DNA from: Clostridiaceae bacterium
GTDB taxonomy: Bacteria; Bacillota; Clostridia; DSM-8532
NCBI GenBank assembly: GCA_012728095.1
Contig: JAAYFU010000034.1
Span: 1-53,016 of the forward strand
Reading direction: 5' to 3'
DNA: 53,016 bases
Within the stretch, counting starts at the first letter, position 1. Each line of letters opens with the position of its first letter. The position numbers and the translations under genes are program-made. The notes below the pieces were generated by a model, which was given only the letters and a program-made list of their open reading frames with translations, did no database searches and was not told the origin of the DNA. Positions 32,075-46,928 of this stretch are shown here, piece after piece.

Positions 32075-32415
32075 TATTGGTAGTTGGCGCAATTGCGTCC
32101 GGGAAAAAGGAGTATGTTAAATCTCTCGGCTATTCTGACTCAGATATTGCCGATGCCATATTGGACGAGCGCCCTGTATTATACAACCTGCAGGACATGG
32201 TATTCTCCGACCCGGAAGGAAGCGGGAACCTATACGATGCGCTCCTGAAAAAAGAAGTTGTAATTTGCAACGAGGTGGGAAGCGGAATCATTCCGGTTGA
32301 CGAAACTGAACGGAAAGCGCGGGAAGCTACCGGCAGGCTTTGCAACCGTCTTGCGCAGGCGGCGGAGCGGGTGGTACGCCTCGTTTGTGGTATTCCTGTC
32401 GTTATAAAGGGGTAA
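32071..32415 (+). CDS. Mini-CobU: CobU-like protein lacking the middle region
   Basis: 114 residues. A shortened P-loop-like start, VVGAIASGKKEYVKSLGY, is followed directly by a C-terminal half matching CobU: VICNEVGSGIIPVDETERKAREATGRLCNRLAQAAERVVRLVCGIPVVIKG. The region of CobU with the nucleotide-accepting His is absent. This C-terminal half looks closer to classical CobU than the same part of the full-length gene at 30780. It may be a kinase-only or regulatory partner. Overlaps cobS by 4 nt. Confidence 0.8.
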   Translation: MILVVGAIASGKKEYVKSLGYSDSDIADAILDERPVLYNLQDMVFSDPEGSGNLYDALLKKEVVICNEVGSGIIPVDETERKAREATGRLCNRLAQAAERVVRLVCGIPVVIKG

Positions 32416-32419
32416 GGAT

Positions 32420-33019
32420 ATGAGAATCATACTTATGCGGCACGGTATAACTGAGGGGAATTTACATAGACGGTATAATGGCAGGACTGACGAACCGCTG
32501 TGTGAAGAGGGAATTTTGCATGCACAGGCCGCAGGTGTTTTAAGCAATATGGCACATGTTTATGTAAGCCCAATGAAGCGGGCAATTCAAACGGCAAGAA
32601 TTTGCTTTCCAAATGCGCAAATGCACATTATCGAGGATTTGCGGGAGATGGATTTCGGGGATTTTGAGGGGCGTACCGTTGATGAACTGGCATGTGATGC
32701 AGCTTATCTTGAATGGGTCAAGGGGAACTGTGAAGGGGAATGTCCCAACGGGGAAAGCATCGCTTCTTTTCAGAAGCGTGTACTGGCAGCTTTTGATATT
32801 GTTATTCGTGATGCCATTGAACGACAGTTGAAAGAGCTGGCTATAGTTGCGCATGGCGGCAGTATTATGGCTATTATGTCAAAATTTGCCGAACCGGCCA
32901 GCAATTATTATGATTGGTATGTACCCAACTGCTGTGGCTATGAAATAATCGTAGACCAGAAAACATGGGAGGTTATACCGCGTTTTTCAGGTCATAAGTA
33001 TTTTGAAAGATTGAGATGA
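32420..33019 (+). CDS. cobC: Alpha-ribazole phosphatase (histidine phosphatase)
   Basis: Removes the 5'-phosphate in lower-ligand assembly. 199 residues, catalytic RHG in LMRHGITEGN (His8), second block YVSPMKRAIQTA, acidic residue in LREMDFGDFEG, last His in VAHGGSIMAI. Five nt after mini-cobU. A generic phosphoglycerate-mutase role is possible, but position supports CobC. Last gene of the B12 operon. Confidence 0.88.
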   Translation: MRIILMRHGITEGNLHRRYNGRTDEPLCEEGILHAQAAGVLSNMAHVYVSPMKRAIQTARICFPNAQMHIIEDLREMDFGDFEGRTVDELACDAAYLEWVKGNCEGECPNGESIASFQKRVLAAFDIVIRDAIERQLKELAIVAHGGSIMAIMSKFAEPASNYYDWYVPNCCGYEIIVDQKTWEVIPRFSGHKYFERLR

Positions 33020-33488
33020 CGAAACTTTACATAGACAGAGAGTTGATTCTCACGTCTTTTCATGTCGGTCTTCACAGATATCTAAAGCATGTTGTACTTT
33101 ATATTTAGTTAATTTAATCAGCAATATCAAAATAAGCGCAAATAAGAGTAATGTAAGTGAAGAACCCCATATTGTGCAGATAGGCTTTTTATTTAATAAA
33201 TTATAAAACCGCTTACAATAATAAAACCAACAAAAGGAATAAAAAAATGAAGCAAATGATTAAAATCAAATCTCATCATACAAACGCTTAGGGACAATCC
33301 CCCAGGAGCCTTATTACTTCCATAGGGAATGCTCCAAATAAAAATACTCCCTTCTGGTATCTTACAACTGATCATTACCAGAAAAGAGTATTTTTTCTTA
33401 ATTATCATGTACAAAGATTATTACAGTCTCGTACCATTGTTGCATTCGTTTTTCGATATATGGATGATGCGTTTATATTATTATTTAA
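33020..33488. other. 469-nt stretch without an intact gene; possible decayed membrane-protein gene
   Basis: No intact gene. On the minus strand one frame reads a hydrophobic tail ending FIPFVGFIIVSGFIIY (stop near 33193). Another frame, directly downstream, reads CTIWGSSLTLLLFALILILLIKLTKYK and on to a stop near 33045, with no start codon. Together they look like a two-helix protein broken by a frameshift. A hairpin with T-tail lies at 33343-33397. Confidence 0.4.
33343..33397 (+). terminator. Hairpin terminator downstream of the B12 operon
   Basis: AATACTC (33343-33349) with GAGTATT (33386-33392) and, inside, TCTGGTA with TACCAGA, followed by TTTT. It may end B12 operon transcripts, or the decayed unit. 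Confidence 0.6.
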
Positions 33489-34199
33489 TTATTTAGACAG
33501 ACCCAATACTACCGGTGTAGACCTATATCCAATCCCCATACGGTCAATACCCATATCTATCAGTTTCAGAAAATGTTCTCTGGTTCTGATGCAACCTGAA
33601 CCTTTGATTTTGCAGCGGCCTTTTGCTGTGTCCATCATAATCTGGATTACTTCCGGAGTAGCGCCTTTTACTTCTCCTCCCGTATAGAATCCTGTGGATG
33701 TTTTGGCAAAATCAGCGCCTGCATTACATATAACTTCAGTTCCTTTTATTATCTGCTCAACAGTAAGAGCATCTGTTTCCAAAATAACTTTTACAGCGGC
33801 GCCATATTTATGACAAACTTCTGTAACGGCCTTAATATCTTTCTCTACCTCATCGTACAGTCCGCTTCTCAGCCATCCGTAATTGGCAACTATATCAACT
33901 TCGAATATATCTCCGCCTTTTAAGCAGTCCTCAACCTGATATATTCTCGACTGTGTACTTGACAGACCAAAAGGAAAATCACATACAACACAAATCTTCG
34001 TTTCCGTTCCCTTTGTCATCTCACGGGCTATGTCCAAAGATGTCGGATTAATGCAAACCGTTTTACAACCAAAGTCAATACCTTCCTGTATGTATCTTCT
34101 AATTTCAGCTTGAGTAAACTCAGGTTTCAGGACCGATTGATCAATATAAGACGCCAACTCTTTTACTGTCATTTCACTTGCTTTTTTTACAGGTTTCAT
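33489..34199 (-). CDS. deoC: DeoC-family aldolase (deoxyribose-phosphate aldolase)
   Basis: The family cleaves 2-deoxy-D-ribose 5-phosphate to glyceraldehyde-3-phosphate and acetaldehyde through a Schiff base. 236 residues from ATG 34199 (AAGGAG 8 nt upstream). The catalytic Lys is in FAKTSTGF (Lys166), the relay Asp in FEVDIVANYG (Asp102), and the second Lys in KIKGSGCIRT (Lys199), where most relatives have KxAGGIR. It sits alone with its own promoter and an operator shared with the glycyl radical operon. No nucleoside phosphorylase or deoxyribomutase gene is near, arguing against plain nucleoside catabolism. Confidence 0.88.
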   Translation of the reverse strand: MKPVKKASEMTVKELASYIDQSVLKPEFTQAEIRRYIQEGIDFGCKTVCINPTSLDIAREMTKGTETKICVVCDFPFGLSSTQSRIYQVEDCLKGGDIFEVDIVANYGWLRSGLYDEVEKDIKAVTEVCHKYGAAVKVILETDALTVEQIIKGTEVICNAGADFAKTSTGFYTGGEVKGATPEVIQIMMDTAKGRCKIKGSGCIRTREHFLKLIDMGIDRMGIGYRSTPVVLGLSK

Positions 34200-34242
34200 A
34201 ATATTACTCCTTTCACAGTATGCTTGGCCCGAATGTATTATT

Positions 34243-34285
34243 TGTATGATACATTTATTATATATACTGAAATACATAAAATCAA
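34243..34285 (-). promoter_or_regulatory. deoC promoter with TGTATNATACA operator
   Basis: Read on the minus strand: -35 TTGATT (34280-34285), 17-nt spacer, -10 TATAAT (34257-34262), then 3 nt and the palindrome TGTATCATACA (34243-34253). The operator covers the expected transcription start, a repressor-roadblock layout. The same arrangement precedes the importer operon. Confidence 0.75.
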
Positions 34286-34290
34286 GTATA

Positions 34291-34326
34291 ATTTATACAG
34301 GTAATAATAATACCTGTATAAATTAA
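34291..34326. repeat. Perfect 14-bp inverted repeat between gntR and deoC
   Basis: AATTTATACAGGTA and TACCTGTATAAATT flank a 7-nt AT spacer. It overlaps the upstream edge of the deoC promoter. No T-run follows on the minus strand, so a DNA operator is as likely as a gntR terminator. Confidence 0.65.
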
Positions 34327-34376
34327 TGGATAATTAAACATTTAATCTTAACCGGAAATACAATCATGAATTAGGC

Positions 34377-35186
34377 TTATACGTTAAGACGCCTCTGAAA
34401 TTCTATTATATTTTTGTTTACAGTGTTATTTCTGTAGAGGTCAAGAATAAAAATGCATTTATCTGCACGGGTGATAGATGTAGTAAACTCAAACACATAT
34501 CCTGTTTCAAGATAAGATATACGTTCAATTTTAAAACCCGGTTCCTTTGCCTTGCATTTGAGACGTTTTGCATTTTCACTGCTTATCAGGATGGCTTCAA
34601 TTGTTTCAACAGCATGGTAAAGATGGAGTTTATAATAGTTGGTCAGTATATTATATAATGATGCCGTCGAAAAATCGTATTTTTCAATACCATGGCATAA
34701 ATAATAAGGTATGTATGATGTTTCAAGTATTATGGGCTCATTATTCGCGCAACGAAGTCTTTTCAGGAGAAAGGCCTTTGATTGTCCGCGTGGAAGCTGA
34801 AGAAGAGTGGCAATGCTTTCTTCCACATCGACAACCTTGCACTGAAGTACAGTAGAACTGGGGATTGCACCGGCATTTCTGATATTTTCAGTGAAATTAT
34901 ACATATAGTTGATATTTCGTTTCAACTTCTGTTCGGCAATATATGATCCTTTTCCTCTGTATCGAATAAGCAGACCTTCCTCTACTAAACGATCCATGGC
35001 CTGACGGATAGTTGTTCTGCTTACATTTAAAATGTCGCATAATTTATTTTCAGTAAACATCTTATCCCCTGGTTTCAAGACACCTGCCTGTATTTGGATT
35101 TTAATATACGCTGCAAGCTGCTCATAAAGAGGTGTGTTACTTTCAGGCGAAAATTTGAAAGTTTTCTTGAAATACTCAACATCCAT
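34377..35186 (-). CDS. GntR-family regulator with UTRA sensor domain (HutC subfamily)
   Basis: 269 residues. N-terminal winged helix (about 15-80): LYEQLAAYIKIQIQAGVLKPGDKM, then ENKLCDILNVSRTTIRQAMDRLVEEGLLIRYRGKGSYI. The UTRA ligand domain spans about 100-260 and includes FLLKRLRCANNEPIILETSYIP. Such proteins usually repress sugar or sugar-phosphate genes and release DNA on ligand binding. It lies between deoC (same strand) and the divergent importer operon, whose promoters share TGTATNATACA, the probable site. GGGGGA precedes ATG 35186. Confidence 0.9.
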   Translation of the reverse strand: MDVEYFKKTFKFSPESNTPLYEQLAAYIKIQIQAGVLKPGDKMFTENKLCDILNVSRTTIRQAMDRLVEEGLLIRYRGKGSYIAEQKLKRNINYMYNFTENIRNAGAIPSSTVLQCKVVDVEESIATLLQLPRGQSKAFLLKRLRCANNEPIILETSYIPYYLCHGIEKYDFSTASLYNILTNYYKLHLYHAVETIEAILISSENAKRLKCKAKEPGFKIERISYLETGYVFEFTTSITRADKCIFILDLYRNNTVNKNIIEFQRRLNV

Positions 35187-35403
35187 TCGTTTGTTCCCCC
35201 ATCTGTGCCACAGTTATAGTTCTTTAATATATTTCAATTTTATATATCATGTTGTTGAAATGTTATCTCCCACATTTTACAACTAATGATATATAAAAGT
35301 TTTAAATAATTTTTTGTTTATTTACATTTCTAGTAAACAATTTACAAATAATTTCTTCATATTGCAACTGTTTTAATAAATTTTATTTTTCATTTAAACG
35401 ATA

Positions 35404-35447
35404 TGGACAAATATAACCGTTAGTGCTATAATCATTGTATCATACAA
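35404..35447 (+). promoter_or_regulatory. Promoter and TTGTATCATACAA operator of the glycyl radical operon
   Basis: -35 TGGACA (35404-35409), exactly 17 nt, -10 TATAAT (35427-35432), then a perfect palindrome TTGTATCATACAA (35435-35447) over the start region. It matches the deoC operator in sequence and in place. The 298-nt gntR-importer gap is otherwise AT-rich with no further gene. Confidence 0.8.
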
Positions 35448-35485
35448 ATAGTACAAATGCATCAATTATTTTTAGGGGGATCAAC

Positions 35486-36475
35486 ATGGAAAATGCTCAG
35501 GCGGTTTCAGCGAAATATTCTAAGTTGAAAGGTTTAAAAGAATCTTTTGCAAAGCTTAAATATTATGGTATCTTATGGGTATTACTCGTTATAGTTTTAA
35601 TAGCATCAATTATTCAGCCGGAATTTATAAAATTTTCAAACATAGTAAATATCATCAGACAAATTGCTATTAATGGTATCATTGCAGTGGGTATGACATT
35701 TGTCCTGTTGACAGGCGGCATTGATCTTTCTGTCGGTGCGACGGTAGGAGTTGTTGCGGTTTCGGTCGCAATGATGTTCCAAAGAGGTGTCAATCCTGTA
35801 CTTGCAATGATTATAGGATTGTTGATAGGTGCTGTAATAGGTTTTATCAATGGCCTGGGGATTACAAAAGGGAAAATAGTACCGTTTATAATGACTTTGG
35901 GCACATTGACTGCCTTCAGAGGATTGGCCTTATATATCGCAAATGGTTCCCCTCAGAGTTGGAGAAACAGTGGAGTAAATATCAAATTTCTTGGACAGGG
36001 TGATATTTTAGCGATTCCTGTTCCAGTATACATTTTTCTTGGCGTATTGATAATGGCGCACATAATATTAAAGTTTACTACATTCGGGCGAAGCGTGTAT
36101 GCAATTGGTGACAGTCGTGAAGCGGCCAGGTTAAGCGGTATAAATGTGATTAAAACAGAGTGGATGGTCTATACTCTTTCAGGTTTTTTGGCGGCACTTT
36201 CATCTTTGATACTCATATCAAGACTAAGCGTCGGTGAGCCAACCGCCGGCGAAGGTGCAGAGCTTGACGCAATTGCTATGTCTGTTATCGGTGGCACAAG
36301 TGTCAGCGGTGGTGTCGGCGGAGTTATAGGTACTTTGCTTGGAGCTACTCTTTTGTCAGTTATTGCAAATCTTCTAAATATAATCGGTATTTCTCCTTTT
36401 ATTCAGAGAATTGTAAAAGGCGCAATTATTATTCTTGCGGTACTTTTGGATACCAAACAGAAAAAATCAAAATAA
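35486..36475 (+). CDS. Ribose-type sugar ABC transporter permease (RbsC-like)
   Basis: 329 residues from ATG 35486 (AGGGGGA upstream), eight to ten helices. Typical: GMTFVLLTGGIDLSVGATVG, NGLGITKGKIVPFIMTLGTLTAFRGLALYIANG, and IAMSVIGGTSVSGGVGGVIGTLLGA near the end. Works with the binding protein and ATPase downstream. RbsC-type systems take up pentoses, hexoses, polyols and autoinducer-2, so substrate class is sugar or polyol. First gene of the operon. Confidence 0.93.
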   Translation: MENAQAVSAKYSKLKGLKESFAKLKYYGILWVLLVIVLIASIIQPEFIKFSNIVNIIRQIAINGIIAVGMTFVLLTGGIDLSVGATVGVVAVSVAMMFQRGVNPVLAMIIGLLIGAVIGFINGLGITKGKIVPFIMTLGTLTAFRGLALYIANGSPQSWRNSGVNIKFLGQGDILAIPVPVYIFLGVLIMAHIILKFTTFGRSVYAIGDSREAARLSGINVIKTEWMVYTLSGFLAALSSLILISRLSVGEPTAGEGAELDAIAMSVIGGTSVSGGVGGVIGTLLGATLLSVIANLLNIIGISPFIQRIVKGAIIILAVLLDTKQKKSK

Positions 36476-36490
36476 GACAAATAAGGTCCC

Positions 36491-36510
36491 AAATCACTTG
36501 GGCGTGATTT
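36491..36510 (+). promoter_or_regulatory. Intercistronic hairpin between permease and binding-protein genes
   Basis: AAATCAC (36491-36497) pairs with GTGATTT (36504-36510). An alternative, CCCAA with TTGGG, overlaps it. No T-run follows. It may act in RNA processing or stability so that the binding protein is made in excess. Confidence 0.45.
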
Positions 36511-36538
36511 TATCATAAAATTTATAGGAGGAAATTCT

Positions 36539-37546
36539 ATGAAAAAAAGGATTTTTGTTCTAGTAATGACAGTTGTATTTGCATTTGCGATGCTGGCAGG
36601 ATGCTCCAACAACACAACAAGTCCGGCGGCTTCCAACCCAGCAGAGACATCTTCCGGTTCTTCCGGGCCATCCGGTTCATCCGGGAAAAAGTTCAAAGTG
36701 GGATTCTCACAGGCGACCATGAATCATCCTTTCAGAGTTGCCATGGTTGAAGAAAACGTAAATTATGCAAAAGAACATTATCCTGAAATGGAGATTATCG
36801 TAACAGACGGAAACAATGACTCCGCAAAACAAGTCAGCGACGTCGAGGATTTAATTGCTCAGGGAATTGATGCGCTTATAATTTCTCCTCTTACTGCTGA
36901 AGCTCTAACCGACGTTTGTGCAAAAGCTATGGAGAAAGGCATTCCGGTCATAACCCTCGACCGAAACGTAAATACTGAAGTTACTACCTACATAGGTGCG
37001 GAAAACAAACCCATGGGTGTTGCATCAGCCAAGCTTCTTGCAGAAATGACAAACAAAAAAGCAAGAATCATTGAAATTCAGGGTACTGCAGGCGCATCAG
37101 CCACCATTGACCGCCATGACGGTTTTGTAGAAGAACTGGCAAACTATCCGGAAATGAAAATTATTGCAGAACAGTATTGCGATTATCTGCGTGAAAATGC
37201 TATGAAATTCATGGAAGACATGCTTCAGCGTTTTGGACCCGGAGAAATTGACGCAGTTTACGCCCACAATGATGAAATGGCTTTAGGTGCATTGGAAGCA
37301 ATCAGAGCAGCCGGACGCGAAAATGAGGGAATAATATTGATTGGAATGGATGGAACAGAAGTTGCATTTGAAGCTATAAAGAATGGTTCTATGGCATTTA
37401 CCGTTGTTTATCCATACTGCGCTCCTGAAGGTGTTCAGTATACATATAAGATTCTCAATGGTGAAAAGGTAGATAAACGTATTGTTCTTGATACAGCAAT
37501 TGTAAGTGCTGAAAATATTGATGAATGGCTTGGTAAAGGGCTGTAA
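36539..37546 (+). CDS. Sugar ABC transporter substrate-binding lipoprotein (RbsB-like)
   Basis: 335 residues with lipobox AMLAGC (Cys at about 22), a Ser/Gly/Pro linker, then a type I periplasmic-binding fold: KVGFSQATMNHPFRVAMVEE, LIAQGIDALIISPLTAEAL, VITLDRNVNTEVTTYIGAEN, and YAHNDEMALGALEAI. The AGGAGG ribosome site is strong. Ligand contacts include a DRN in the expected Asp-Arg position seen in monosaccharide binders. Exact ligand unknown. Confidence 0.92.
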   Translation: MKKRIFVLVMTVVFAFAMLAGCSNNTTSPAASNPAETSSGSSGPSGSSGKKFKVGFSQATMNHPFRVAMVEENVNYAKEHYPEMEIIVTDGNNDSAKQVSDVEDLIAQGIDALIISPLTAEALTDVCAKAMEKGIPVITLDRNVNTEVTTYIGAENKPMGVASAKLLAEMTNKKARIIEIQGTAGASATIDRHDGFVEELANYPEMKIIAEQYCDYLRENAMKFMEDMLQRFGPGEIDAVYAHNDEMALGALEAIRAAGRENEGIILIGMDGTEVAFEAIKNGSMAFTVVYPYCAPEGVQYTYKILNGEKVDKRIVLDTAIVSAENIDEWLGKGL

Positions 37547-37630
37547 TCTTTAAAGTAAAATATTTTACTTAAAATTAATTTTATTCTGATAACGACCAAT
37601 AAAATATTCAAGCACTGTGGAGGGATTTCA

Positions 37631-39127
37631 ATGCTGAAAATGAATCATATCTCCAAAGAATTTCCTGGAGTAAAGGCACTTGATGATGTTTCAATATCGG
37701 TTGAAAAAGGTGAAATTCATGCACTTATAGGTGAAAATGGTGCAGGAAAGTCCACTTTGATAAAAATATTATCAGGAGCCTATACTGCAGATTCCGGTGA
37801 AGTGATTATAGATGGAGAAATAATTAAAAATCCATCGCCCGCACTGATGATCGAAAAGGGAATAGCGGTTATATATCAGGAGTTAATGCTGTTGGAACAC
37901 CGGACAGTAGCTGAGAATATTTTTATTGGTCGTTATCCTAAAACCAAATTTGGTTTTGTTGATTATAAGAAAATGAGAGAAGATACTTTGAAGATAACAA
38001 AGGAACTCTCTTTAGATCTTGATCCTGATGCAATAGTCAGTGATCTGAGTGTTGCAAAAAGGCAAATGGTCGAAATTGCAAAAGCTATGTCCCGGAATGC
38101 CAAACTGATTGTATTGGATGAACCTACTGCGGTTTTGGGTGAATCCGAGCTGGAAGGGCTTTTCAAAATCGTAAGGGAGCTCTCTCAAAAAGGAATAACT
38201 TTCATTTACATATCTCATCGTCTGAAAGAAATCTTCGAACTCTGTACAACCTTGACCATTCTTAAAGACGGTAAATTGGTTGAAACAGGAAAAGTGTGTG
38301 ACTATAGTATTGATATGCTGGTAACAAAAATGGTCGGCCGTGATATGTCGGATATATATCCTCCTAAACAGCGCAACATCGGGGAAGAAATTCTCCGTGT
38401 TGAAAACCTTACAAGAAAAGGCATACTGCACGGTATCAGTTTCTCATTGAGAAAAGGTGAAATTTTAGGTATATCCGGACTTGCAGGCTCGGGGCGTACA
38501 GAAATTCTTCGGGCTATTATGGGAGTAGATCCTATTGATAGTGGTTACATCAGAATAAATGGGAAAATTTGCGAATTTAAGAATCCCAGGGACGCTATAA
38601 ATGCTAAACTGGGTTTGGTACCTGAAGAAAGAAAGACACAGGGACTATTGCTTAAGCAGGATGTGACTTACAATACAAGTATTGCTTCACTTAAAAAATT
38701 TGTTTCAAAAGGTTTTATAAATACCAAGAAAGAAAGAAAAGCAGCCAAGGATTTTGTTGAGAAGCTTCGAACAAAACCTGGCGCTATAAATATAATTACA
38801 CAAAACATGAGCGGTGGTAACCAGCAGAAGGTGGTACTATCAAAGTGCTTGTCCTGCGAATGCCAAATTCTGCTGGTGGATGAACCCACACGTGGTATAG
38901 ATGTTGGTGCAAAACAAGAAATATACAATATATTAAATGAACTGACAAAAGACGGAATTTCGATAATAATGGTTTCTTCGGAACTCCCGGAGCTTTTGGG
39001 AATGTGTGACCGAATCATGGTTATGAACGAGGGACATATGACAGCAATTGTTGATGCAAAAGATGCTGACGAAGAATTGCTGATGTATTATGCAACATGC
39101 GATGTTTCGGCTTCAGCTTCAGCTTAA
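37631..39127 (+). CDS. Sugar ABC transporter ATPase, tandem domains (RbsA-like)
   Basis: 498 residues with two ATPase domains. Domain 1: Walker A GENGAGKST, signature LSVAKRQMVEIAKA, Walker B LIVLDEPTAVL. Domain 2: Walker A SGLAGSGRTE (Lys replaced by Arg, as usual in this family), signature MSGGNQQKVVLSKCL, Walker B LLVDEPTRGIDVG. An 18-nt palindrome (37553-37570) precedes it. The order permease-binder-ATPase is unlike the classical rbs order. Confidence 0.94.
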   Translation: MLKMNHISKEFPGVKALDDVSISVEKGEIHALIGENGAGKSTLIKILSGAYTADSGEVIIDGEIIKNPSPALMIEKGIAVIYQELMLLEHRTVAENIFIGRYPKTKFGFVDYKKMREDTLKITKELSLDLDPDAIVSDLSVAKRQMVEIAKAMSRNAKLIVLDEPTAVLGESELEGLFKIVRELSQKGITFIYISHRLKEIFELCTTLTILKDGKLVETGKVCDYSIDMLVTKMVGRDMSDIYPPKQRNIGEEILRVENLTRKGILHGISFSLRKGEILGISGLAGSGRTEILRAIMGVDPIDSGYIRINGKICEFKNPRDAINAKLGLVPEERKTQGLLLKQDVTYNTSIASLKKFVSKGFINTKKERKAAKDFVEKLRTKPGAINIITQNMSGGNQQKVVLSKCLSCECQILLVDEPTRGIDVGAKQEIYNILNELTKDGISIIMVSSELPELLGMCDRIMVMNEGHMTAIVDAKDADEELLMYYATCDVSASASA

Positions 39128-39165
39128 CTTAATATGGTTAAGTTTGTTGAAAAGGGGTGAGTGAT

Positions 39166-41574
39166 ATGTTAACGAAGAAACTTCTTCCCGAAGGGATAAC
39201 CAGAGAAGAACGGACAAAAAAGCTCAATGAGGCTATGCGGGCGGTTAAACCCGAAATATGTGTGGAACGGGCAAGACTTGTTACAGAAAGCTATAAGCAG
39301 ACAGAAGGTGCTCCATACATATTACGGCGTGCTCATGCTTTGTCCCATATTCTTAAAAATATGACAATTTTTATCGAAGAAGATGAGCTGATTGTTGGTA
39401 ATCATGCAAGTAAACCACGTTCAGCTCCGCTTTTTCCCGAGTTTGGATCATTTGATAAAAAAGAACTTGACTTAATGCCTGTCAGAAAGGTAGATACGCT
39501 GCAGATTACCGAGGAAGATAAAAAGTATCTACTTGAAGAGATTTATCCATGGTGGAAGAATAAAAATACAGGTGATATGGCCAAATATTATATTAATGAA
39601 AAAATCATGGATGTGTTGAATTCGCCATATCGCGTATTAGATCCCATAAGTCGTACCAGAAGCGGTTATGGTCATTATATACCAAATATTGAAACTGTAT
39701 TGAAAAAAGGATTTATAGGTATTGAACAAGAAGCGAAAAAACATCTGGAAAACCTGGATATTCTGGATCCGGATTATCCTGAAAAAAAACACTTTTACGA
39801 GGCCATCCTCATTATAGTTGATGGTATAAAATGTTTCGCAAAGCGTTATGCAGATCTCGCAAGAGCAATGGCCGAAAAGACAACAGATAAAAGACGAAAA
39901 AAAGAACTTGAACTTATTGCTTTGAATTGCGACCGGGTGCCTTATTATCCGGCAGAAAGCTTTTACGAAGCATTACAGTCCTATTGGTTTACTATACTGA
40001 TAGATTATATTTTCCAAAACGGTTCAGCTATATCGGGTGGGCGTTTCGACCAGTATATGGCTCCTTACTACGAAAATGACATCAAAAAAGGAATCATTGT
40101 CAGGGAAGAGGCAAGAGAACTCCTGGAGGCTCTTTGGGTAAAGCATAGTGATGTCATTAAAGTCGGCACTTTCAATAGTGCAAGGAACAACGGAGGATTT
40201 GCAACAACTATCAATATCGTGCTCTCAGGAGTTGGAAAAGACGGCAATGATGCGACAAGCGATTTTTCATATCTTTGCCTTGATGCGGAATCCAGTGTTT
40301 TTAATTCTGAACCCAATGTGAGTATCAGAGTTTCCCAAAAGACACCCGATGAGTTTCTTCATAAAGTACTTGAAATCCTTGTTGAAAAAGAAGGCGGTAA
40401 ATTACCGCTGTTTAATGACGATGCCATTATTGATGCGCTTGTAACTGACGGTGCTTCCATAGAGGACGCAAGGGATTATGCTATAGTAGGCTGCGTTGAG
40501 CCTACTCCGAGCGGAAATACTATGGGAATCACGAACGCATGTTATTTTAATTTGGCGAAATGCCTGGAACTTGCGTTGAATGATGGTGTTTGCCCTTTCA
40601 GCGGACAGCAGATGGGACCGAAGACAGGAAAGGCAGAAAACTTTACCAGTTTTGATCAGGTATTAGAAGCTTATAAAACACAGGTAGAATATTTTGCCGA
40701 TATGATGGTAAGCTCACTTAATTCGATCGAAAAGCTCCATGCTCAATATAGTCCGCATATTTATTGCTCGATGCTTCTGGATGGCTGTATTGAAAATGGT
40801 AAAGACTGTACTTTAGGTGGAGCCAAATACAATTACATAGGTGTGCAGGGAGTCGGTGTTCAGGACGTTGGAGATTCTCTGACAGCCATCAAAAAAGTGG
40901 TATTCGAAGATAAAAGCATTACAATGAAAGAACTTCTTGAAGCATTAAAAAGTAATTTTAAAGGCTATGAAGTATTACAGCAAAGACTTATCAACAAAGT
41001 ACCTAAGTATGGCAATGACATTGATGAGGCTGATAATATGGTAGCCTGGGCAGCTGAACACTATTGTTCCTGCTTTGATGACAAGTATGATTTCAGAGGA
41101 GGAAAATTCCGTCCGGGTCTCTTCTGCCTGTCATCAAATACTCCTCTCGGGCGTCAGGTTGGTGCGCTCCCAAGCGGAAGGTTATCCGGTACACCTCTTG
41201 CAGACGGTGGCGTTTCTCCAAAGCATGGCATGGACACTCACGGTCCTACAGCTGCTGCAAAATCTGTGGCAAAAATAAATCATGCCCGTGCGGTAAATGG
41301 TGTGAACTTCAACATGAAATTCTTGCCGAGCATTTTGAAAACAAAAGAGGATCGCCAGAAACTCATAGATCTGATACGCGGTTATTTTTCGTTGGGTGGA
41401 TTTCATATTCAATTCAATATACTTACACCTGAAAAACTCATTGATGCTCAGAAACACCCTGAAAGACACCGTAGTCTGGTCGTGCGTGTCGCCGGATACA
41501 GTGCGTTTTTTGTTGAACTGGATAGAGACATTCAAAACGAGATAATAGCAAGAACTCTGCAACAGGTATCATGA
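39166..41574 (+). CDS. Glycyl radical enzyme, dehydratase-like, substrate unassigned
   Basis: 802 residues from ATG 39166 (AAAGGGGTGAG upstream). The thiyl Cys and general base lie in AIVGCVEPTPSG (Cys443, Glu445), the C-x-E pattern of dehydratases; pyruvate formate-lyase has two adjacent Cys. The glycyl radical loop is VRVAGYSAFFVELDRD (Gly777). The substrate pocket differs from B12-independent glycerol dehydratase: the His-Ser pair in its NGHS block is Ser-Ala here (NGSAISGGRFDQY), and the substrate-binding Asp 14 residues after the thiyl Cys is Asn (ITNA). It should remove water from, or open C-O bonds in, a sugar or polyol supplied by the adjacent importer. Confidence 0.93.
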   Translation: MLTKKLLPEGITREERTKKLNEAMRAVKPEICVERARLVTESYKQTEGAPYILRRAHALSHILKNMTIFIEEDELIVGNHASKPRSAPLFPEFGSFDKKELDLMPVRKVDTLQITEEDKKYLLEEIYPWWKNKNTGDMAKYYINEKIMDVLNSPYRVLDPISRTRSGYGHYIPNIETVLKKGFIGIEQEAKKHLENLDILDPDYPEKKHFYEAILIIVDGIKCFAKRYADLARAMAEKTTDKRRKKELELIALNCDRVPYYPAESFYEALQSYWFTILIDYIFQNGSAISGGRFDQYMAPYYENDIKKGIIVREEARELLEALWVKHSDVIKVGTFNSARNNGGFATTINIVLSGVGKDGNDATSDFSYLCLDAESSVFNSEPNVSIRVSQKTPDEFLHKVLEILVEKEGGKLPLFNDDAIIDALVTDGASIEDARDYAIVGCVEPTPSGNTMGITNACYFNLAKCLELALNDGVCPFSGQQMGPKTGKAENFTSFDQVLEAYKTQVEYFADMMVSSLNSIEKLHAQYSPHIYCSMLLDGCIENGKDCTLGGAKYNYIGVQGVGVQDVGDSLTAIKKVVFEDKSITMKELLEALKSNFKGYEVLQQRLINKVPKYGNDIDEADNMVAWAAEHYCSCFDDKYDFRGGKFRPGLFCLSSNTPLGRQVGALPSGRLSGTPLADGGVSPKHGMDTHGPTAAAKSVAKINHARAVNGVNFNMKFLPSILKTKEDRQKLIDLIRGYFSLGGFHIQFNILTPEKLIDAQKHPERHRSLVVRVAGYSAFFVELDRDIQNEIIARTLQQVS

Positions 41575-41588
41575 AAGGACGAAACAGC

Positions 41589-42566
41589 ATGAGTATGTAT
41601 GATCTATGCGCTATAGGAGATATACTTGTGGATTTCACACCAATGGATCCATCGCCCGCGGGGAATTTCGTATATGAATGCAACGCAGGCGGGACGGTTG
41701 CAAATTTATGTGCAGCAGCCGGAAAATTTGGTTTGAGAACATTATTCATCGGTAAAATTGGAAACGATGATTTAGGAAAAGCTGTAAGGAGAAAAGTGGA
41801 AGAATCTAACGTTGATATGAGTGGTTGCTCAGTGGACGACGAAGCTTTCACCACGCTTACTTTTGTTACTCTAAACAATGGTGAAAGAAGTTTTAGTTTT
41901 TCACGGAAAAACTCAGCCGATATTAACCTGAAACCTGAAGATGTACCCGAAGATAAAGCTCTGAATTCCAGAATCTTGCATTTTTCAGGCATGTGTCTTA
42001 CTGATCAGCCAGTTAGGGACACAACGCTCAATCTGGTGAAAAAAGCACGTGAAAAGGGAATATTTATAACGCTGGATGTAAACTACAGAGAAAAACTCTG
42101 GAGAAACAGAGATGAGGCAGTAGAAATTTTCCGGGATTCTATTGCTCTGGTTGATTTGTATAAATCTTCAGAAGAAGAAATATTGCTTTTATCCGGAGAA
42201 ACTGATCTTGAAAACGCGGCGAAAAATATTTCCGCTTTGGGACCAAAATTCATTATTGTTTCTTGCGGTCCGAAAGGAGCATTCTATTATTACAATGGTC
42301 TTTCAGGCCGGCTAAACACATACGATACTAAGCCAGTCGATACTACCGGTGCCGGCGATTGTTTTATGGCGGCTGTTTTGTATCAGATAATAAAACGCGG
42401 CGGGATAAAGGACATGACGAAAGATGAAATAGAGGGAATGATTGATTTTGCCAATGCAGCAGGAGCCCTGTCTATAACAAAACGGGGAGGAGTAGCTTCC
42501 ATGCCCACTGTTGAGGAAGTGGAACGCTGCATGAGAAACATTCCGATACTGGTGGCGCCATGGTAA
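41589..42566 (+). CDS. PfkB-family carbohydrate kinase
   Basis: 325 residues from ATG 41589 (AAAGGA upstream; ATG 41571 overlaps the enzyme gene's stop). N-terminal AIGDILVDFTP and GGTVANLCAAAGKFG, substrate-side SFSRKNSADINL as in fructokinases, and the catalytic anion-hole motif DTTGAGDCFMAAVL near residue 250. It phosphorylates a sugar, polyol or deoxy sugar of this pathway. Its place between the radical enzyme and its activase ties it to the same route. It overlaps the activase gene by 7 nt. Confidence 0.92.
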   Translation: MSMYDLCAIGDILVDFTPMDPSPAGNFVYECNAGGTVANLCAAAGKFGLRTLFIGKIGNDDLGKAVRRKVEESNVDMSGCSVDDEAFTTLTFVTLNNGERSFSFSRKNSADINLKPEDVPEDKALNSRILHFSGMCLTDQPVRDTTLNLVKKAREKGIFITLDVNYREKLWRNRDEAVEIFRDSIALVDLYKSSEEEILLLSGETDLENAAKNISALGPKFIIVSCGPKGAFYYYNGLSGRLNTYDTKPVDTTGAGDCFMAAVLYQIIKRGGIKDMTKDEIEGMIDFANAAGALSITKRGGVASMPTVEEVERCMRNIPILVAPW

Positions 42567-43480
42567 AAAAAGCTGTTGAATCAATAAAAGGTTTAGTATT
42601 CGATATTCAGCGTTACAGCATTCATGACGGTCCTGGAATCCGTACGGTAGTATTTTTGAAGGGTTGTCCCCTGCGTTGCAAATGGTGTTCCAATCCTGAA
42701 TCCCAGGATATCAGGCCACAAATTTTCTATATTAAGTCTCGTTGTATGGGTTGTGGTCTTTGTGAAAAAAATTGCCCTGATAAAGAAGTGAAGCTCGAAC
42801 ATGATGGCCTGAAAATTGACTGGAAAGCCGCCAACAGAGGCGATTTAGCCTGGACGTCTGTTTGCCCGACAGGAGCCCTGGGGATCAAAGGAATATATAT
42901 GTCAGTTGAAGAAGTTCTCAACATAGTGATGAAAGATGAGATCTTTTATAGGCAAAGCGGGGGAGGAATGACGCTTTCAGGCGGTGAGCCCCTGATGCAG
43001 CCCAAGTTTGCCCTGGGACTTTTGAAGATGGCCCGTGAAGCGGATATTTCAACTGCAGTAGAAACTACCGGATATGTGGATAGAAAAGTGTTATTGGATG
43101 CTATGCATTATACCGATGTTTTCCTTTATGATTTTAAACATTGGGATGATGAAGCACATATAAAGTATACAGGAGTTTCAAACAAAAAAATTAAGGATAA
43201 TTTAAAAATACTTGCAGAAGCCGGGGCAAATATAATGGTACGAACGCCTTTAATCCCGGACGTAAATGATTCCGAAGAGTCAATAAGAAAAATAATGGAG
43301 ATAATTAAAGAGTACGGAATTAAGAAATTTACATTACTTCCTTTCCACCAATATGGCAGTGGGAAATACGCATCATGCGGGATGCAGTATGATATGAAGG
43401 ATGTAAAACCCCACAGCGAAAAGCAGGTTGCAAAGTTGTTCAGGATCATTGAAGATAGCGGATTTAGCAGTGAGTTCTGA
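42560..43480 (+). CDS. Glycyl radical enzyme activase (radical SAM)
   Basis: Uses S-adenosylmethionine and a [4Fe-4S] cluster to place the radical on Gly777 of the upstream enzyme. 306 residues. SAM cluster motif CPLRCKWC (Cys36, 40, 43), GGGMTLSGGEPLMQ, ferredoxin-like insert CMGCGLCEKNC (62-72) then VCPTGAL (Cys102). The usual second CxxC before VCPTGAL is missing (GDLAWTS is there), so at most one complete auxiliary cluster is expected. The pairing with the upstream gene is by synteny. Confidence 0.94.
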   Translation: MVKKAVESIKGLVFDIQRYSIHDGPGIRTVVFLKGCPLRCKWCSNPESQDIRPQIFYIKSRCMGCGLCEKNCPDKEVKLEHDGLKIDWKAANRGDLAWTSVCPTGALGIKGIYMSVEEVLNIVMKDEIFYRQSGGGMTLSGGEPLMQPKFALGLLKMAREADISTAVETTGYVDRKVLLDAMHYTDVFLYDFKHWDDEAHIKYTGVSNKKIKDNLKILAEAGANIMVRTPLIPDVNDSEESIRKIMEIIKEYGIKKFTLLPFHQYGSGKYASCGMQYDMKDVKPHSEKQVAKLFRIIEDSGFSSEF

Positions 43481-43495
43481 TATATATTTTTTTGG

Positions 43496-43537
43496 GGCCA
43501 GAAAACGTTATAGGGGGGGGACGGTTTCTGGCTTTTA
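43496..43537 (+). terminator. Intra-operon hairpin after the activase gene
   Basis: GCCAGAAA (43497-43504) pairs with TTTCTGGC (43525-43532) around a G-rich loop, followed by TTTTATAA. It may reduce readthrough into the oxidoreductase-PHP pair, which has its own AAGGAGG ribosome site. Confidence 0.6.
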
Positions 43538-43579
43538 TAACATGATTGCAAAATTAATTGATTATTAAGGAGGTTTTCA

Positions 43580-44641
43580 ATGCTTAATATCGGTATCGTT
43601 GGTTGCGGGAAAATGGGGAGAGTTCATGCCGAGGTTTTTTCAAAAAATCAAAACTGTAGAATTAAAGGACTTTATAACAGATCTGTTGAAAAAGCAGAAT
43701 CTATTAAGGAGAATCATCCTGATGCAAAAATTTATAACAGTTGGGAAGATTTAATTAAAGATCCTGAAATAGATGTTGTTGCAATCAGTACACCGCAAAT
43801 ACAGAGATTGGATCAATACCGTCTGGCAATCGAAAATGGTAAGCATGTTTTTCTGGAAAAACCCATGGGGATGGGGCTGCGAGATGTGAATCAGACACTT
43901 GAATTGCTTAAGAAATGTAATGTTTGTTTTTATGTGGATTCGCAAATCAGGAGCCAGCCAACTATACTTGCTATTAACAAGGTGATATCAAAAATTGGGC
44001 GTATATTCCACATAGATATGGAATTCTCAATGTACCGTGATGAAATAAAATGGAAACATAAGTTAATAGCAGGAGGAGGTGTACTCCGCGAACTTTGCGG
44101 ACATTTGATTGACCAGGCAGCAGATTGGCTTGGAGAAGCAAAAAGCGTTACCGCAGTCAACAAAGTTATCCTTCCCGGTCGCGAAACAGAAGATTATTCT
44201 GTTAATTTGATTGAATATAAGAATGGCGCAACATTAATACTGACCGGCAGTTATTGGGATCATACCGGAAGACTTTATCGTGGGCGCATTCTGGGTGAAA
44301 ATGGTCAGATCAACTTTACGTTCAGTTCCTATTCGCCTTCAGATGCATCAGCGGTGATATATATTGACGGGAAGAAAGAGGATATTGTCATTGATATACC
44401 CGATGAGAATGATATAAACAGTGTTTATCCGGGTCATATGGACAGCTTTAAAAAAGAAATCGATCGTTTTGTTGAATTGGTTATAAAAGGACAGAAAGCA
44501 TGGGATACTCTTGAAAAAGAATGGAATACTTCCCAGGTCATCGCAGCTTCTTATGAATCGACAAGAACGGACAGCAAAGTGTTTCTGCCTCTTAATGATT
44601 TTGATATTAATAAACTTAAAGATTGTTTCAGAAACTTCTGA
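43580..44641 (+). CDS. Gfo/Idh/MocA-family sugar oxidoreductase
   Basis: 353 residues. N-terminal Rossmann fold IGIVGCGKMGRVHAEVF (NAD(P) binding) and the family motif FLEKPMGMG with the catalytic Lys near residue 94. The second part has AGGGVLRELCGHLIDQAADWLG with the catalytic His. The family oxidises or reduces inositols and sugars at a CHOH. It could convert the imported sugar to the form the radical enzyme needs. AAGGAGG 6 nt before ATG. Followed 20 nt later by the PHP gene. Confidence 0.92.
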   Translation: MLNIGIVGCGKMGRVHAEVFSKNQNCRIKGLYNRSVEKAESIKENHPDAKIYNSWEDLIKDPEIDVVAISTPQIQRLDQYRLAIENGKHVFLEKPMGMGLRDVNQTLELLKKCNVCFYVDSQIRSQPTILAINKVISKIGRIFHIDMEFSMYRDEIKWKHKLIAGGGVLRELCGHLIDQAADWLGEAKSVTAVNKVILPGRETEDYSVNLIEYKNGATLILTGSYWDHTGRLYRGRILGENGQINFTFSSYSPSDASAVIYIDGKKEDIVIDIPDENDINSVYPGHMDSFKKEIDRFVELVIKGQKAWDTLEKEWNTSQVIAASYESTRTDSKVFLPLNDFDINKLKDCFRNF

Positions 44642-44661
44642 AAAGAGAGCAGTGGATAAAG

Positions 44662-45546
44662 ATGTCAAAAATAGATTTTCACATGCATTCAATATATAGC
44701 TGCGACGGAGAATATACACCGGAAGAGCTGATATATCTGGCAAAGGAAGCTGATCTTAAGGTAGTGGCCATTACGGATCATAATACAACAAAAGGTGTGG
44801 ACGAAGGAATACAGGCAGGAAAAGCTTTGGATATTGAAGTTGTACCTGCTGTTGAATTGGATTGCATACATCATGGTATTGTATTTCATGTATTGGGATA
44901 TTTCATAGATCATAAATCCAAAAAATACTTCAAAATTGAAAAGAATATATATGACCAGGAAATCGCTGCATCAAAGCAAAGAATTGATTTAGTCAGAAAA
45001 ATGGGAATAGAAATAGATGCTGATGAAGCTCTATCCCATGCCAAAGACGGTATTGTGACCGGTGAAATCATTGCAGAAATTGTTCTAAATGACCCTTCAA
45101 ATGCCGATAATCCACTTTTGCTGCCCTATTTCCCAGGAGGAGCCAGGGCGGATAACCCGTATGTTAATTTTTACTGGGATTACTGTTCCCAGGGCAAACC
45201 AGCTTATGTACATATAGATTATATTTCCATGAAAGAGGCAATATCGCTGATTATAGAAACAGGCGGTGTTCCTGTGCTGGCTCACCCGGGAATCAATTTA
45301 GAAGGAAGACCGGAGCTTCTTGACAGTATAGTTAAGCTGGGGATAAAAGGCATTGAAGCATACAGCAGTTACCATTCTCCAGATCAAAACCGGTATTTTA
45401 TACAACAGGCACAAGAATACGGACTATTAATTACCGGAGGGAGTGATTTTCACGGCAAGACAAAACCATCCGTATTTATGGGGAATTTCGGGCTGGAACA
45501 GGATGGTATGGCTCTTTTTAATGCACTAAAAGACTTAAAAGATTAA
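44662..45546 (+). CDS. PHP-domain phosphoesterase
   Basis: 294 residues from ATG 44662. Metal motifs of the PHP fold in order: DFHMHSIYSCDGEYTP, AITDHNTT, AVELDCIHHG, VLAHPGINL and GSDFHG. It resembles the YciV/TrpH branch, which hydrolyses nucleotide and sugar phosphates. In this operon it may remove phosphate from a pathway intermediate or a toxic dead-end product. This is inference. The frame opens earlier at 44623 without a ribosome site. Last gene of the operon. Confidence 0.88.
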   Translation: MSKIDFHMHSIYSCDGEYTPEELIYLAKEADLKVVAITDHNTTKGVDEGIQAGKALDIEVVPAVELDCIHHGIVFHVLGYFIDHKSKKYFKIEKNIYDQEIAASKQRIDLVRKMGIEIDADEALSHAKDGIVTGEIIAEIVLNDPSNADNPLLLPYFPGGARADNPYVNFYWDYCSQGKPAYVHIDYISMKEAISLIIETGGVPVLAHPGINLEGRPELLDSIVKLGIKGIEAYSSYHSPDQNRYFIQQAQEYGLLITGGSDFHGKTKPSVFMGNFGLEQDGMALFNALKDLKD

Positions 45547-45576
45547 TAACCAATTATAAGATAAAAAATTACAAAA

Positions 45577-45603
45577 AATAACACCCTTCACGGGTGTTAT
45601 TTT
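45577..45603 (+). terminator. Terminator of the glycyl radical operon
   Basis: AATAACACCC (45577-45586) and GGGTGTTATT (45592-45601) form a perfect 10-bp stem with a TTCAC loop and T-tail. Confidence 0.9.
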
Positions 45604-45605
45604 AG

Positions 45606-45683
<78 letters not shown>

Positions 45684-45793
45684 TCGTCATTTTTTGCGCT
45701 CAAATAGTATAACAAAATTTTTTCCCATTTGCAAGTCCTTTTTTATTATATCAAAAAGTTTATAAATTGCAATATTAAATGCCGTCCTAAATT

Positions 45794-46928
45794 ATGGTAA
45801 TACATTGTATCTTAGCAAGCGGCAGCTATTTCATTTGCGGATTTATATCCAAATATTCTCCTGGGATAATTATTAATCCATTTTTCGATACTTTTTATTT
45901 TTGCTGTGCTTATCTTACTTATATCAGTTCCCTTTGGTATAAAACGCCTTATCAACTTGTTTATATTCTCATTTGTACCTCTTTCCCATGAACTATAGGG
46001 GTGTGCATAGTATATCTTAGTCCTGATGCTGCCTGGCTCTATTGTTGATCTTTCAAGCTCCTTAAAATTCAAAAATTCTGAACCATTATCAACAGTTATC
46101 GTTTTAAACTTTTCTCTGAATACTTCCTTGTACTTAAATTCTAATTCATCTATTGCCTTGATTACAGAATCTTGCGTTTTGTTTGGTATCTTAAATATTA
46201 TCTCTTCTCTCGTCTTTCGTTCACTCAATACCAGTAATACTTCTTGATTCTCTTTTTTACCTACTACACAATCCATCTCCCAGTGTCCATATTCAACTCT
46301 ATCTTCAACCTCTTGCGGCCTTTCCTCTATACTTCTTCCCTTTATATTCTTGAGCGCTATCTTCTTTACTTTTTGATATATTCGTTTCTTTCCATCCTTT
46401 TTTACCGGAAGTTCTTTATTTGTTAATTTTAAAAACACATCTCCTCGATCTATGTAGTTATTCAGGGTCTTGGTACATATGCTTGTTTTAAACTTCAGTC
46501 CTTTCGCTTTTATTTCTCCAATAACTGCATCCGGAGAATACTTCCCTTTTATTATTTTTGTTTCTATATGCCTTGTTAATTTATGGTCATTTCCTATCTT
46601 TAACTGTGGCCCTTTATTCTTTCCATTCTCTATGTATTTCCTTTGCCCTACATCTGCACAATATGCTTTCCTATAGCTTAAATCGCTGTTTTGTAAATAT
46701 ACTGTCCCCCTGGCTATTTCTCTTTCTATTGTCCTTTTATGCCTTCCTAATCTCTTTGCTATTTGTTGTATTGTATATTTTTCTCGCAGGTATAGTTCTA
46801 TTGCATATCTTTCCCTTTCATTTAGATGTTTGTTCTTTCGTGATTCTGTGTTATGATTCATATATAACTCATGGTACTCCTTTGCTTATGTTTTTTTGGA
46901 CGTTAAACATTTTACAATGGATTACCAT
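45794..46928 (-). mobile_element. IS30-family insertion sequence
   Basis: Terminal inverted repeats ATGGTAATACATTGTA (45794-45809) and TACAATGGATTACCAT (46913-46928) match at 15 of 16 positions and bracket one intact transposase gene. Outer bases (AATT/GAGT) may extend the ends slightly. The element lies between the initiator tRNA and the c-di-AMP riboswitch gene. No clear target duplication is visible. Confidence 0.85.
45812..46861 (-). CDS. IS30-family transposase
   Basis: 349 residues. N-terminal helix-turn-helix (LNERERYAIELYLREKYTIQQIAKRLGRHKRTIEREIARG). DDE catalytic triad: Asp197 in GHWEMDCV, Asp258 in ITVDNGSEF, Glu298 in RGTNENINKLIRRF. Full length and uninterrupted, so probably active. 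It ends 3 nt from the inner edge of the left inverted repeat. Confidence 0.95.
   Translation of the reverse strand: MNHNTESRKNKHLNERERYAIELYLREKYTIQQIAKRLGRHKRTIEREIARGTVYLQNSDLSYRKAYCADVGQRKYIENGKNKGPQLKIGNDHKLTRHIETKIIKGKYSPDAVIGEIKAKGLKFKTSICTKTLNNYIDRGDVFLKLTNKELPVKKDGKKRIYQKVKKIALKNIKGRSIEERPQEVEDRVEYGHWEMDCVVGKKENQEVLLVLSERKTREEIIFKIPNKTQDSVIKAIDELEFKYKEVFREKFKTITVDNGSEFLNFKELERSTIEPGSIRTKIYYAHPYSSWERGTNENINKLIRRFIPKGTDISKISTAKIKSIEKWINNYPRRIFGYKSANEIAAAC

Follow-up and report, generated by a model that had tools for sequence, protein, structure and literature searches.

A GntR/HutC-type regulator gene and a conserved 20-bp candidate operator at the deoC and sugar importer promoters of a Clostridiaceae bacterium

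Genes and promoters on either side of gntR

The window, i.e. the whole stretch of 53,016 nucleotides that was analyzed, carries a gntR gene between a deoC-like gene and an operon encoding a ribose-type importer, a glycyl radical enzyme and a sugar kinase. The features are the following (position, strand, description):

33489-34199, minus: deoC-like aldolase (TIGR00126, 185.7 bits, cut-off 117.3; start ATG at 34199 assigned by the ribosome-binding site)
34234-34253, minus: extended candidate operator of deoC, TGTATCATACAAATAATACA (palindrome TGTATCATACA at 34253-34243, 3 nt past TATAAT; third half-site ACA at 34236-34234)
34257-34262, minus: -10 hexamer TATAAT of the deoC promoter (17-nt spacer; followed by the gap AAA)
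34280-34285, minus (read 34285-34280): -35 hexamer TTGATT of the deoC promoter (also TTGATT in L011 and L012, see below)
34289-34325, minus: terminator-like hairpin in the gntR/deoC interval
34377-35186, minus: GntR/HutC-type regulator, putative repressor (PF00392 and PF07702 UTRA)
35404-35409, plus: -35 hexamer TGGACA of the importer promoter
35427-35432, plus: -10 hexamer TATAAT of the importer promoter (17-nt spacer; TG ahead of the hexamer; gap CAT)
35436-35455, plus: extended candidate operator of the importer operon, TGTATCATACAAATAGTACA (palindrome TGTATCATACA at 35436-35446, or 35435-35447 with the flanking T/A pair; third half-site ACA at 35453-35455)
35486-36475, plus: ribose-type ABC importer permease, first gene of the controlled operon
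36539-37546, plus: sugar-binding lipoprotein of the importer
37631-39127, plus: importer ATPase
39157-41574, plus: glycyl radical enzyme of the PFL2-3 dehydratase branch, without a characterised equivalog
41571-42566, plus: PfkB-type sugar kinase
42560-43480, plus: radical-SAM activase of the glycyl radical enzyme
43580-44641, plus: Gfo/Idh/MocA-type dehydrogenase, near the cluster end
44659-45546, plus: PHP-domain protein, last gene conserved with L011 and L012

The first-pass annotation had described two divergent promoters on either side of gntR. The controlled units do point apart with gntR between them, but only the importer operon is divergent from gntR, deoC lying downstream of gntR on the same strand. 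The terminator-like hairpin between these two genes suggests that deoC needs a promoter of its own. The 17-nt spacing claimed for both promoters is borne out by the positions of the hexamers, and the palindrome does follow a perfect TATAAT, with a gap of exactly 3 nt at both promoters rather than the 2-3 nt given before. The block common to the two promoters, TGTATCATACAAATARTACA, is 20 nt long with one difference and exceeds the 11-bp palindrome.

On the plus strand of the window no strong terminator was found between the importer genes and those of the radical enzyme, the kinase and the activase; as these genes are also close-set, the operator should control all of them. Just past the cluster end lie a tRNA gene (45609-45683, minus) and an IS30-like transposase ORF (45812-46861). 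The gntR product has both the GntR HTH (PF00392, 1.1e-18) and the UTRA domain (PF07702, 7.8e-35), and scores below the cut-off of every NCBIfam equivalog model.

Conservation and shape of the site

Conservation in related genomes, one of the checks named in the first-pass annotation, was found in five other clusters having a gntR ortholog and the same radical enzyme. Together with the window these make six clusters: L011 and L012 belong to the same genus (84-85% identity), and L013, L014 and L015 are more distant (68-70%). L013 is from Mediterraneibacter massiliensis and L015 from Faecalicatena contorta, both Lachnospiraceae; L014, from a Clostridiales isolate with a cluster resembling these two, was counted among the three Lachnospiraceae. 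Of the regulator genes, only gntR was seen in 6/6 clusters; its product is 60-76% identical to that of the window and has a strongly conserved HTH region. The operator is conserved alongside gntR, with two sites in each of the six clusters. In L011 and L012 these lie before deoC and before the permease gene, and their position relative to the -10 box is also kept together with the gntR ortholog; in L013-L015 they lie before the permease gene and in the region divergent from gntR. The operon divergent from gntR in L013-L015 encodes a DeoR-type regulator, a maltose-acetyltransferase-like hexapeptide protein and a DUF1349 protein and, in two of these clusters, also a PHP-domain protein.

At each of the nine permease and deoC promoters (deoC and permease in the window, L011 and L012, permease in L013-L015) the spacer is 17 nt long and a -10-like box ends 3 nt short of the site. 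The 3-nt gap is not kept at all of the gntR-side sites of L013-L015. Comparison of the 12 sites, a non-independent set drawn from just two bacterial groups, defines an asymmetric 20-bp operator of the form TGTATCATACA-WWT-NNN-ACA with a third half-site, in which positions 1-11, 14, 18 and 20 are invariant and position 19 is kept in 11 sites. The 11-bp palindrome that had been taken for the operator is thus present, but the full site is longer and asymmetric. On the strand bearing the downstream third box, the base in the middle of the palindrome is C without exception, which gives the operator a direction, and at 9/9 permease and deoC promoters this direction is along transcription.

Every site (12/12) reads GT-ATCAT-AC, i.e. 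it has 5 nt between GT and AC, whereas in most HutC-type sites there are 4 (PMC4494728). This rule holds for most, not all, members of the group, so the longer spacing does not exclude a membership assigned from the domains. Extra half-sites 7-12 nt from the centre have been documented for HutC-type regulators (PMC4494728).

Within the family, each of the three genomes that bear the cluster has exactly two copies of TGTATCATACAWWT, compared to 0-1 in the other 29; in the genome of the window, the two copies are exactly those at the deoC and importer promoters. TGTATCATACAWWTNNNACA, with one mismatch allowed, likewise occurs exactly twice per genome, always in the cluster, in the three Lachnospiraceae genomes (3.1-5.3 Mb). 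A search for further gntR orthologs added only G006 from 391 genomes of the class and none from 299 genomes of the Lachnospiraceae-side family, which indicates that the cluster is rare. In G006, which is of the same genus, gntR (77%) and a deoC of the divergent subfamily (88%) are adjacent (L061, 7004-8743), with neither importer nor radical enzyme alongside; the deoC site, TGTATGGTACA, has one mismatch, and another one-mismatch site, TGCATAATACA, lies upstream of gntR. A relative in L016 (62%) has neither gntR nor an exact site nearby and gives no clear clue to the substrate. In a genome of another genus of the family (G029), TGTATCATACAAAT was seen just upstream of a rubrerythrin-like gene (L053, 1501-1511). 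A close gntR ortholog was not found in that genome, and this copy is possibly the site of another regulator.

The regulator and alternative explanations of the site

Taking the domains, the sites and their neighborhood together, it is very probable that the GntR/HutC-type protein encoded next to them is the repressor that acts on TGTATCATACA-WWT-NNN-ACA and putatively controls deoC and the importer-radical enzyme-kinase operon. That one repressor serves both promoters, as had been proposed, is supported by the presence of a gntR ortholog and two sites in each of the six clusters; binding by this GntR, the repression and an effector we infer. A GntR dimer would sit on the palindrome, probably with the help of an added contact 9 bp downstream, at the third half-site. 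The -10 box ends 3 nt upstream, thus, judged from the usual -10 to +1 distance, transcription is expected to start inside the palindrome. Bound GntR would cover the DNA from about 3 nt past the -10 box across the transcription start, and could in this way block RNA polymerase, or its escape, at the deoC and the importer-radical enzyme-kinase promoters. A pathway metabolite bound in the UTRA domain would free GntR, and uptake, radical dehydration, phosphorylation and aldol cleavage would be turned on together.

It is improbable, though worth weighing, that the site is a real operator of some other regulator (a GntR/HutC paralog or a DeoR-type protein) and that the adjacent gntR acts elsewhere. 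The GT-N5-AC spacing, one nucleotide longer than usual for HutC, fits such an explanation and speaks against GntR, as does G006, which has gntR with a deoC site that is one mismatch off and no exact site. A DeoR-type gene also stands beside a site in the Lachnospiraceae clusters, but it was seen only in L013-L015, whereas GntR is present in all six clusters, and the sites flank or neighbor gntR and occur nowhere else in these genomes.

Still less probable is that the two promoters resemble each other because they are common strong promoters or stem from a recent duplication of a promoter segment, the likeness then reflecting no protein-binding site. The -10 boxes and spacers are indeed similar, in regions of about 75% A+T, but the two promoters have different -35 boxes and other letters in spacer and gap, and the operator is letter-perfect at both, in two distant groups and at promoters that include non-orthologous ones; besides, the palindrome is not a sigma-70 element.

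A chance A+T-rich palindrome, suggested by the frequent occurrence of the loose motif in the window, is the least credible explanation, being contradicted by the shuffles and the genome-wide count and already refuted by the conservation. In dinucleotide shuffles the probability of the exact motif occurring in both intergenic regions was p ~1e-5 (product of two rates). A common 5-N-5 palindrome of any sequence appeared in 0.6% of shuffles of the two regions, and none of 400 shuffles gave an exact match as long as the 15 nt observed (maximum 14). The first-pass annotation had named a genome scan as a check and a motif common at random as the outcome that would count against the operator. The latter is true of the loose motif (up to 2 mismatches), which was seen 38 times in the window compared to 34.5 expected from shuffles; as this is no enrichment, the exact site alone is meaningful. 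The exact site is rare: TGTATNATACA has 9 copies in the 2.22-Mb genome as compared to 4 of the reversed control, and the longer TGTATCATACAWWT is confined to the two promoters. Six of the other seven exact TGTATNATACA copies lie within ORFs. Two candidate sites were set aside, the exact copy at 32175, which is inside an ORF, and a copy at C70:61475, which is intergenic, but in which TGTATAATACA includes TATAAT and lacks the third half-site. An RNA element was also dismissed: Rfam gives just one tRNA within 33000-46000, and a 5-1-5 palindrome cannot fold into a full RNA hairpin.

Pathway and comparison with known systems

The importer operon of L013-L015 runs from permease through binding protein, ATPase and kinase to deoC; with deoC as the last gene, the aldolase is tied directly to the kinase. 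The radical enzyme and activase genes stand apart in these clusters and no site was found upstream of the radical enzyme gene, thus co-control of the radical enzyme is not universal. A connection of the aldolase with the radical enzyme, as claimed in the first-pass annotation, is supported within limits: it gains from the position of deoC in the importer-kinase operon of the Lachnospiraceae and loses from the radical enzyme gene having no site there and from the lack of a radical enzyme in G006. Aldolase and importer can firmly be placed in one regulon, to which the radical enzyme also belongs in the group of the window; elsewhere the radical enzyme is linked by neighborhood.

As a hypothesis, a route leading from a polyol through a 2-deoxyaldose and its phosphate to acetaldehyde and triose phosphate fits the gene set. 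The importer would take in a polyol, for example a pentitol, the glycyl radical enzyme would dehydrate its terminal diol to the 2-deoxyaldose, the PfkB kinase would phosphorylate this, and the divergent DeoC would cleave the product to acetaldehyde and triose phosphate. Judged from gene content, such an anaerobic polyol route, with GntR sensing one of its intermediates through the 20-bp operator with three half-sites, is a tentative proposal, one that we consider possible without favoring it. Conservation of the site across two distant groups connects the glycyl radical enzyme, itself uncharacterised, with the sugar importer, the kinase and the divergent aldolase. The chemistry of the radical enzyme is narrowed by this to reactions whose product, when phosphorylated, can be cleaved by a deoxyribose-phosphate-type aldolase. 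The value of the regulon is thus that of functional evidence, yielding a short testable list of substrates. In the open-access literature we found no report of the motif as a bacterial operator and none joining this radical enzyme, kinase and aldolase; the regulon appears to be undescribed yet ordinary in kind, a case of routine bacterial control.

The radical enzyme has the PFL-like and glycine radical domains, the GCVE catalytic pair and a neighboring activase, placing it in the PFL2-3 branch, and shares domains, GCVE motif and dedicated activase with glycerol/diol dehydratase, PflD and trans-4-hydroxyproline dehydratase. It falls below the cut-off of every characterised dehydratase equivalog. 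Unlike the B12-independent glycerol/diol dehydratase, it has SRTRSGYGH in place of GNYYYNGVGH, NGSAIS in place of NGHSIS and GITN in place of GWHD, stretches which we take to be the substrate-site residues of that enzyme; the pattern is retained in the Lachnospiraceae orthologs.

The window DeoC retains the catalytic residues of deoxyribose-phosphate aldolase, i.e. the Schiff-base lysine (KTSTG), the second lysine and the aspartate (EVD), and scores above the TIGR00126 cut-off. It differs from canonical DeoC by a 4-residue insertion after KTSTGF, by KGSGCIRT (GSGC for ASGG) in place of KASGGIR and by a changed C-terminal GxGYxSxPVV loop, loops that presumably bind phosphate. By its sequence it is a distinct subfamily; a separate, canonical DeoC is encoded on contig 54 of the genome. 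A relative of this subfamily (69% identity) was noticed on Enterococcus raffinosus megaplasmids (NZ_CP081847.1, 669577-670275; L084), adjoining an AraC-type regulator and with no radical enzyme nearby.

The regulator has the same GntR HTH and UTRA architecture as NagR/YvoA, DasR and TreR, NagR/YvoA and DasR being its closest solved relatives. Like these GntR/HutC repressors, it is associated with a palindromic GT...AC operator that lies close to a transport/catabolic operon promoter, but there are 5, not 4, nt between GT and AC. A further difference from HutC operators is that the third half-site is near-invariant and the orientation is fixed to transcription at the importer and deoC promoters. 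With the FarR-type HutC sites, which are direct repeats of TGTATTAWTT, the site has in common half-sites of the TGTAT type and a non-standard layout (PMC4494728); it consists, however, of a perfect inverted repeat and one extra half-site, not of two long direct repeats.
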